Below, in pieces: positions 31,211 through 44,709 of a stretch of DNA of 44,709 bases. Location of the stretch: NCBI RefSeq assembly GCF_007692705.1, contig NZ_REBN01000139.1, forward strand, positions 1 through 44,709. The letters run 5' to 3'. Every line of letters starts with the position of its first letter. Position 1 is the first letter of the stretch. This DNA is from Mongoliibacter sp. Its GTDB lineage: Bacteria; Bacteroidota; Bacteroidia; Cytophagales; Cyclobacteriaceae. The notes under the pieces were generated by a model. It searched no databases. It was not told the origin of the DNA and saw only the letters and a program-made list of their open reading frames with translations. A program made the position numbers and the translations under genes.

Positions 31211-31387
31211 ATGCCATATATTTTGAGTTTTCGAAGCTGTTTGGTGAAATTTTATTATATTACAATTGTACAGAAACTCGAGAAGCCAATACCTTGTCAT
31301 CAGATTTTGCATGATTTTGGGATTGGTTTTTTGCTAGAGAGATATTCAATTTACACATAGCGTAGTTGAAAAATCTAAAAAATTTAT
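31211..31387. other. AT-rich gap, no gene seen
   Basis: Nothing codes here. It separates the L20 terminator from the degenerate tRNA/GIY-YIG unit. Confidence 0.5.
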
Positions 31388-31478
31388 TTGAAAGAATATA
31401 AAACGTAAACACAGTACATTGTGTAAAACAGCTGGTATAAAAAAAAGCCCCAAAAGTGGGGCTTAAGTAGCGAGGAGC
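31388..31478. repeat. 91-bp direct repeat, left copy
   Basis: Matches 31777-31866 almost exactly (about 90 bp, offset 389 bp). On the minus strand it contains the 3' end of a tRNA-Met, its terminator hairpin and the first 11 codons of a GIY-YIG gene (MYCVYVLYSFK from an ATG at about 31419), after which similarity stops. Differences are one A in an A-run and one base near 31422. Confidence 0.9.
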
Positions 31479-31557
31479 TCCCGATAGCTATCGGGACGAA
31501 CTGCCGTCCGCCGCGGCGCCTGCCTACTGTCAGGCAGGGATATAAATCCTGCGCTAG
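31465..31557 (-). pseudogene. Degenerate tRNA-Met remnant with palindromic insertions
   Basis: Compared with the intact tRNA-Met at 31856-31929, the minus strand keeps AGCGCAGGATT, GGCAGTTCG and GCTCCTCGCTA. The 5' acceptor and D-arm are missing, the anticodon CAT is changed to TAT-like sequence, and palindromic segments interrupt the rest: CCTGCCTACTGTCAGGCAGG (31519-31538), CGCCGCGGCG (31509-31518), and TCCCGATAGCTATCGGGA (31479-31496), which replaces part of the T-loop. Its 5' edge coincides with the stop codon of the GIY-YIG gene. Confidence 0.8.
31479..31496. repeat. 18-bp perfect palindrome in tRNA remnant
   Basis: TCCCGATAGCTATCGGGA is fully self-complementary. It shares the TCCCGA...TCGGGA arms with the palindrome inside both tRNA-Asp-like units at 44431 and 44559, and loosely with TTCCGA...TCGGGA at 12941-12964. 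Confidence 0.9.
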
Positions 31558-31808
31558 ATGTATTTAGGAAGTATTTGGTCTTTTATCCAATCCCTTCCTT
31601 TCCCGGTCTTGGGTTCTTTTTCTCTTCTAAGAGCTTGGGATTTCGAATTAAAAAATTCAAAGTGTATACAATACCAAGGTCTGTATCAGATTGTATGCCC
31701 TTTAGTCGAGAATTCATTGTGGAATTTGAACCTTGTGATAAGATCAGAAGTCATTCCAGTGTATGATCTATGATACTTGAAAGAATATAAAACGTAAACA
31801 CAGTACAT
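31554..31808 (-). pseudogene. Small GIY-YIG endonuclease gene with one in-frame stop
   Basis: From ATG 31808 to TAG 31554-31556 there are 84 sense positions in one frame: MYCVYVLYSFKYHRSYTGMT, then SDLITRFKFHNEFSTKGHTI, a TGA (31686-31688, codon 41), YRPWYCIHFEFFNSKSQALR and REKEPKTGKGRDWIKDQILP. This is the full length of the small standalone GIY-YIG nucleases common in Bacteroidota: a VYVL...YTG core, the catalytic Arg helix (TRF) and the E-containing ALRREKE helix. The TGA replaces an expected Arg (CGA to TGA). The gene follows the tRNA-Met terminator and ends in a tRNA remnant. Confidence 0.85.
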
Positions 31809-31866
31809 TGTATAAAACAGCTGGTATAAAAAAAGCCCCAAAAGTGGGGCTTAAGTAGCGAGGAGC
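31777..31866. repeat. 90-bp direct repeat, right copy
   Basis: Partner of 31388-31478. It spans the 3' end of the intact tRNA-Met, its terminator and the first 11 codons of the GIY-YIG gene, so the repeat defines a tandem tRNA + GIY-YIG unit of 389 bp. Confidence 0.9.
31829..31853 (-). terminator. Terminator of tRNA-Met
   Basis: Reading the minus strand, AAGCCCC pairs with GGGGCTT around ACTTTT and is followed by a T-run, directly after the tRNA 3' end. The same hairpin is duplicated at about 31440-31464. Confidence 0.85.
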
Positions 31867-31929
31867 AGAATCGAACTGCCGACCTCAGGGTTATGAATCC
31901 TGCGCTCTAACCATCTGAGCTACCTCGCC
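31856..31929 (-). tRNA. tRNA-Met (anticodon CAT)
   Basis: A 74-nt cloverleaf on the minus strand: acceptor GGCGAGG with CCTCGCT, D-arm GCTC...GAGC, anticodon loop TTCATAA, T-arm GGCAG-TTCGATT-CTGCT, discriminator A. One A-C mismatch at the base of the anticodon loop. An elongator Met tRNA is most likely; Ile2 with modified CAT cannot be excluded by eye. No encoded CCA. Confidence 0.92.
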
Positions 31930-44655: not shown

Positions 44656-44709
44656 GGAGTGGTAGTTCAGCTGGTTAGAATGCCTGCCTGTCACGCAGGA
44701 GGTCGCGGG
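44656..44709 (+). tRNA. tRNA-Asp (anticodon GTC), cut by window end
   Basis: GGAGTGG acceptor, D-arm AGTTCAGCTGGTTAGAAT, anticodon arm CCTGC-CTGTCAC-GCAGG, then the start of the variable and T region (AGGTCGCGGG). The 3' part is beyond the window. It is the likely parent of the two altered units upstream. Confidence 0.9.

Follow-up and report, generated by a model that had tools for sequence, protein, structure and literature searches.

The tRNA-Met locus on the minus strand of the window, by which we mean the whole analysed stretch of 44,709 nucleotides from Mongoliibacter sp. (genome G000), is a decayed member of a widespread, tRNA-adjacent and apparently undescribed family of bacterial nucleases. 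Judging from the sequences, it is probably a decayed copy of a homing-type selfish element that is specialised on tRNA genes. If this is true, single-copy essential tRNA genes across a bacterial superphylum have repeatedly been occupied by a minimal selfish element of ~350-440 bp, and the host survives since the element always leaves one working tRNA. The reading would also account for two things near tRNAs that annotation leaves unexplained: sequences resembling tRNAs, and small genes labelled 'UvrC-like' or 'GIY-YIG family'. It would open three matters to test: the selfish life of a nuclease in an essential RNA gene, the constancy of isotype, and what a conserved hairpin does in a tRNA copy that no longer works.

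The minus strand of 31387-31929 holds every element of the tandem tRNA-Met and GIY-YIG layout that had been described from the letters alone, including the TGA at codon 41 of the nuclease gene. Read 5' to 3', the order is tRNA-Met, terminator, GIY-YIG gene, tRNA remnant (tRNA*), terminator and a GIY-YIG 5' fragment, and the parts lie as follows:

31855..31929, minus strand: intact tRNA-Met(CAT) of the elongator type (ARAGORN; Rfam 64.8 bits)
31828..31850, minus strand: intrinsic terminator copy 1, hairpin GCCCCACTTTTGGGGC plus T run, between the tRNA and the nuclease gene
31554..31808, minus strand: GIY-YIG nuclease gene of 84 codons (PF01541), a pseudogene with one in-frame TGA at codon 41
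31467..31556, minus strand: tRNA*, a tRNA-Met copy that lacks its 5' end and is inactivated by inserted hairpins/palindromes (seen when aligned with the intact tRNA)
31519..31538, minus strand: palindrome CCTGCCTGACAGTAGGCAGG, nested in the Met-lineage hairpin of tRNA*
31506..31517, minus strand: GCCGCGGCGGAC, the 3' arm of the Met-lineage hairpin that replaces the anticodon-stem 3' strand in tRNA* (equivalent hairpin in relatives)
31479..31496, minus strand: palindrome TCCCGATAGCTATCGGGA in the T-loop of tRNA* (core CCCGATAGCTATCGGG, 10 times in the genome)
31440..31462, minus strand: terminator copy 2, 3' of tRNA*
31387..31419, minus strand: second GIY-YIG copy, a 5' fragment of 11 codons, where the direct repeat ends

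The elongator anticodon-arm sequence CAGGATTCATAACCCTGAGG has a single exact match in the window genome, namely this tRNA-Met. With the TGA read through, the nuclease ORF matches PF01541 at E 1.9e-12, and it is 79% identical to the intact gene at the equivalent locus of a relative (G002). The direct repeat described as including the tRNA 3' end and the GIY-YIG start was recovered, with the terminator between them, as 91 bp at 97.8% identity; its E value of 4e-42 rules out a chance origin. The nuclease stop codon is fused into the tRNA remnant, as had been described: its TAG falls inside tRNA*. The remnant itself had been called degenerate: it is a tRNA copy, but not a simply degenerated one, being a near-perfect tRNA sequence broken by two palindromes. 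An Rfam search of the window returned tRNAs only, with tRNA-Met uninterrupted and no group I intron, and the GIY-YIG gene is the sole ORF within the unit, which has no integrase. Elsewhere in the window, at 44656-44709, the contig end truncates a tRNA (36 bits) that lies 270 bp past tRNA-Thr.

A PF01541 search of 59 relatives, together with fetched loci, gave 97 small GIY-YIG proteins, which fall in two clades of a tree (support 100/96), A with 37 rows and B with 60. The window gene is a member of clade B, which comprises single-domain nucleases of 80-130 aa from Bacteroidota, Balneolota, Cloacimonadota and KSB1. A same-strand tRNA lies within 160 bp of 39/60 clade-B genes, against 0/37 in sister clade A, whose members are of similar size (Fisher p 7e-12; 59 genomes); for 11 further clade-B genes, a tRNA is found within 900 bp or the gene is an additional copy in an array that is itself linked to a tRNA. 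In an independent scan, one Met-type protein was searched against 84,980 species and loci were chosen by protein sequence alone. A tRNA occurred within 200 bp in 61 of the 79 loci, on the same strand in 61/61 and upstream of the nuclease in 60 of these 61. The linked tRNAs included 56 tRNA-Met, mostly of the initiator type and the remainder elongator, and three tRNA-Asn, all from Cloacimonadota, while several of the unlinked loci lie at contig ends or have a tRNA slightly beyond 200 bp. The bias towards tRNA genes that the original prediction had proposed to look for in this subfamily is thus present both in the tree (39/60 against 0/37) and in the scan (61/79), and the arrangement was seen in dozens of genomes, many genera and about a dozen tRNA isotypes.

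The window genome has one other small GIY-YIG locus of clade B, at the end of contig C276. Assembled by joining this end to the start of C202, which carries the tRNA, it reads tRNA-Ile2(CAT), terminator, intact GIY-YIG gene, a tRNA copy bearing hairpins in the anticodon and T loops, terminator, and a 41-codon GIY fragment that lies within a 171-bp exact repeat.

The nucleases are faithful to their isotypes. We compared the isotypes of 41 tRNA-linked clade-B proteins with those of their nearest neighbours in other genomes, and they agreed in 31 of the 36 testable cases; shuffling the isotype labels 10,000 times gave a mean of 3.6 and a maximum of 14, so nuclease lineages keep to Met, Asp, Pro, Ser, Leu/Arg or Val even where they span several genera and families. 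The source of this fidelity may be the specificity of the protein or homology-limited recombination. Three Cloacimonadota loci (L155, L165, L196) have Met-lineage nucleases beside tRNA-Asn with TCCGGC..GCCGGA hairpins, which suggests horizontal transfer between phyla together with retargeting.

In the protein, Y5, Y16, G18, R26, H30, E63 and K67 are invariant in 21 sequences, and the GIY-YIG catalytic Tyr, Arg and Glu are conserved in clade B. The median dN/dS is 0.10, and 34/34 comparable pairs fall below 0.5; judged by these ratios, the nuclease is under strong purifying selection. Clade-B proteins, at 80-130 aa, contain the GIY-YIG domain only, with no separate DNA-binding region of the kind found in I-TevI. 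Matches to UPF0213 / COG2827 and SLX1-type structures (PDB 1zg2, 1ywl, 7cq2) span nearly the whole protein (E 3e-17, 3e-8), whereas PHROG homing-endonuclease matches are weak (E 1e-4); among solved structures, UPF0213 and SLX1, a structure-specific nuclease, stand closer to the family than any homing enzyme with sequence specificity. A phage source of the family was also sought, and phage records gave no close copy and zero matches, the only viral hit being one weak contig.

At most tRNA-linked loci of the survey there is a second, inactive tRNA copy, again termed tRNA*, with hairpins in the D, anticodon, variable or T regions. It follows the nuclease at Met, Asp, Asn, Val, Ala, Thr and some Pro loci; the mirror-image order (tRNA*, nuclease, intact tRNA) is found at Leu, Arg, Ser and some Pro loci. 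Leu/Arg copies have a D-loop hairpin, of the 20-nt CCTGCCTG..CAGGCAGG type in six genomes, Ser copies have hairpins in the D and anticodon loops, and the other isotypes have one in the anticodon/variable region and often one in the T-loop too.

For the Met lineage, 33 copies were picked through flanking anchors alone, unselected for the hairpin. In 31 of them, a TCCGnn-loop-nnCGGA hairpin replaces the 3' side of the anticodon stem, tRNA* reading CAT-ATCCGCC-loop-GGCGGAC where the normal tRNA has CAT-AACCCGAAGGTC. The stem, at its fixed place, has 6 bp in 30/33 copies and 5 bp in one more (6 bp is reached by 3.8% of shuffles). Of 19 distinct hairpins, 6 have one stem pair changed on both sides from C-G to U-A, and 3 have the like change in a second pair; 0/500 shuffles equalled these 9 compensated cells. 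The density of TCC-hairpins is 3.5/kb just downstream, compared with 0.13-0.19/kb farther off. Conserved position and covariation make the hairpin an inherited, constrained part of the element, and they rule out random decay of a tRNA remnant. Furthermore, the hairpin type tracks the nuclease lineage and not the host, with G045, G028 and G033 each carrying different hairpins at different isotypes; for the anticodon and D-loop hairpins, this also disposes of palindromes as general genomic noise, an explanation that was rejected in part. The 3' end of tRNA* matches the tRNA of its own host at 0.90 and matches between loci at 0.76, which fits a tRNA* whose hairpin side would come from the element and whose 3' side would come from the host.

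The window genome carries the core of the T-loop palindrome, CCCGATAGCTATCGGG, as a dispersed host element in 10 copies. Some of these copies interrupt a cobalamin riboswitch and an RNase P RNA that is full-length apart from the insert (L107 1251-1673, L103 1438-1665), and others lie within long open reading frames or at their margins (L105, L106), in a manner reminiscent of the protein-coding palindromes of Rickettsia.

Occupied and empty tRNA-Met loci, which the original prediction had suggested comparing, can be set side by side at a locus next to a START-domain gene that is orthologous across the order. Tandem, single, nuclease-less and apparently empty states all occur there. Some relatives have only the tRNA, some have it with nuclease and tRNA*, and some have arrays in which the nuclease is present two to four times; about eight tRNA* form one tandem array, and other loci keep nuclease fragments, or a tRNA* that has no nuclease. 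Nuclease sequence is present in at least 18 of the 55 relatives, and others have tRNA* alone. The 'empty' calls are upper bounds, as three genomes that first seemed empty or nearly so (G062, G087, G194) each contain a decayed tRNA*. Within one genus and between the same flanks, G172 and G215 have two nuclease copies, whereas G087 and G194 have decayed tRNA* only. The elongator anticodon arm has one exact match per genome in G000, G001, G002, G059 and G142, so the working tRNA must always be retained; in G059 and G142, tRNA* occupies the native position, and the array contains the working tRNA farther downstream. One locus of G019 (L119 1880-3010) has about eight head-to-tail 103-bp copies of the hairpin-bearing tRNA-Met copy before the nuclease gene, and the assembly of this genome, which has a gap in the array, contains no exact match to the normal anticodon arm. 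A series of gain, decay and loss with pseudogenes is what is expected of established homing-endonuclease life cycles, and the series at the START locus, together with the window pseudogene, may be read as such a cycle.

Sister clade A has other company. None of its genes (0/37) lies within 160 bp of a tRNA, and its loci lie amid REP-like intergenic repeats of the forms GTCATTCC...GGAATGAC and GTCATCTC...GAGATGAC (for example L012, L015, L023, L033, L043, L065 and L079). At least four repeat motifs occur within 600 bp at 12/35 clade-A loci, compared with 0/129 for clade B (p 2e-9). Clade A and its REP-like repeats are a second nuclease-repeat partnership.

The idea that a selfish element spreading with or into tRNA genes gave rise to the window layout is supported by the tRNA linkage, the recurrence and the several occupancy states, with cleavage and homing as its putative steps. 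Taking these together with the anatomy, isotype fidelity, hairpin conservation, purifying selection, arrays and decay visible in the sequences, we infer the following course. The mobile unit would consist of a single-domain GIY-YIG gene and, tagged by a hairpin, an inactive copy of one tRNA; it would be inserted, in the same orientation, into the transcription unit that serves a functional tRNA of that isotype. The nuclease, weakly expressed by read-through from the tRNA promoter, would break tRNA genes of its own isotype, and repair from the element-bearing copy, using tRNA homology on both sides, would install the nuclease and tRNA* while leaving one working tRNA. The hairpin would mark the copy that has lost its tRNA function and perhaps escapes further cutting. 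Unequal recombination between tRNA and tRNA* would generate head-to-tail arrays and 3'-truncated end copies; the nuclease genes would decay, as in the window, and then be lost, leaving nuclease-less tRNA*.

The main gap of this homing reading is self-immunity. The intact tRNA beside the nuclease is of the same sequence types, including the T-arm, as in apparently element-free genomes, and it is tRNA* that is altered, so no resistant allele accounts for the uncut host gene. A recoded, cleavage-resistant rescue tRNA was considered as well; the T-arms of tRNA and tRNA* differ in G002 and G059, but they usually match, and the idea is not general. Besides the lack of a resistant allele, the absence of a DNA-binding domain, the relatedness to UPF0213/SLX1 and the want of a close phage copy count against homing. 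Because of the self-immunity gap and the UPF0213/SLX1 similarity, real weight stays with a rival that we consider unlikely on the whole, in which a structure-specific nuclease cuts the cruciform or hairpin of the tRNA* palindrome and the ends recombine with other tRNA copies, spreading nuclease and tRNA* without cutting intact tRNA genes. Toleration of the intact tRNA would thereby be explained, and this rival agrees with UPF0213 and SLX1 as nearest solved relatives, with a hairpin that is the most conserved non-protein part and has compensatory changes, and with the tie of clade A to hairpin-type repeats. However, it does not by itself explain invasion of new element-free genomes or isotypes, and type-D loci, with the nuclease before the intact tRNA, have different hairpins at a different tRNA position.

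A wider reading, which we regard as decidedly doubtful, would make the small GIY-YIG nucleases a class of mobile systems of the Bacteroidota group in which every clade has a particular hairpin, DNA or RNA, for a partner (tRNA* for B, GTCATTCC/GGAATGAC-type intergenic repeats for A). The nuclease would act via this partner, where tRNA* RNA might serve as the guide or cofactor that directs it to the tRNA gene, and a natural destroy-and-rescue element would thus capture single-copy essential tRNA genes. It is very unlikely that nuclease and tRNA* instead benefit the host by regulating or processing the neighbouring tRNA at the RNA level, the linkage reflecting co-expression. Same-strand linkage, strong purifying selection and the amount of tRNA sequence retained in tRNA* would suit such a role, but occupancy is patchy, with loss at an orthologous single-copy tRNA locus, several copies are pseudogenes, array length varies, and species and elements do not form fixed pairs. 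Practically no credence can be given to a one-off tandem duplication, in the window lineage, of a tRNA and an unrelated adjacent GIY-YIG gene. The simple two-unit repeat of the window would allow it, but such an event was looked for as the explanation and not found: the layout, with lineage-specific hairpins, is common to dozens of genomes and about a dozen isotypes, and this recurrence across many genera and isotypes refutes it.

A selfish element on tRNA genes, which remains our preferred reading, has partial parallels among known systems. A 2006 survey of GIY-YIG nucleases mentions tRNA for a methyltransferase fusion only (PMC1564403), and no earlier description of the family in bacteria was found in the open-licence literature. 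SegB, one of the free-standing GIY-YIG homing endonucleases of T-even phages, adjoins tRNA genes (PMC13096335; PMC2988022) and, according to the relevant passages, drives tandem repeats of tRNA plus 3'-truncated segB (PMC13096335); at its loci, the 5' end of the tRNA shares microhomology with the 3' end of segB, and SegB is reportedly frequent near phage tRNAs (PMC13096335; PMC2988022). SegB is the nearest described behaviour; clade B likewise has a GIY-YIG gene at tRNAs and tandem copies of tRNA plus truncated nuclease. Unlike SegB, clade B is found in bacterial chromosomes, has a single domain of 80-130 aa and keeps to one isotype per lineage; the hairpin-tagged spare tRNA is a clade-B feature that the same passages do not mention for SegB loci.

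UPF0213 / COG2827 and SLX1 resemble clade B in sequence over nearly the whole protein, although SLX1 is larger by one domain and acts in repair, and no tie to tRNA genes is known for nucleases of these types. In fungal mitochondrial mobile ORFs such as that of Allomyces atp6, a nuclease ORF in an essential gene carries a replacement 3' gene end; as in clade B, the duplicated gene end keeps a working copy and displaces the old end. These ORFs, a possible parallel, differ in that they concern mitochondrial protein genes and are without a hairpin-tagged copy. Genomic islands and prophages that integrate through tyrosine integrases likewise make use of the 3' ends of tRNAs, and the tRNA fragment that they displace remains as a direct repeat, whereas the clade-B unit is without an integrase, is only about 350-440 bp long and has a displaced copy with conserved hairpins. 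Finally, REP/RAYT systems also combine a small nuclease gene with hairpin repeats, but clade B uses a GIY-YIG nuclease instead of a Y1 transposase, and its hairpins lie within tRNA copies.
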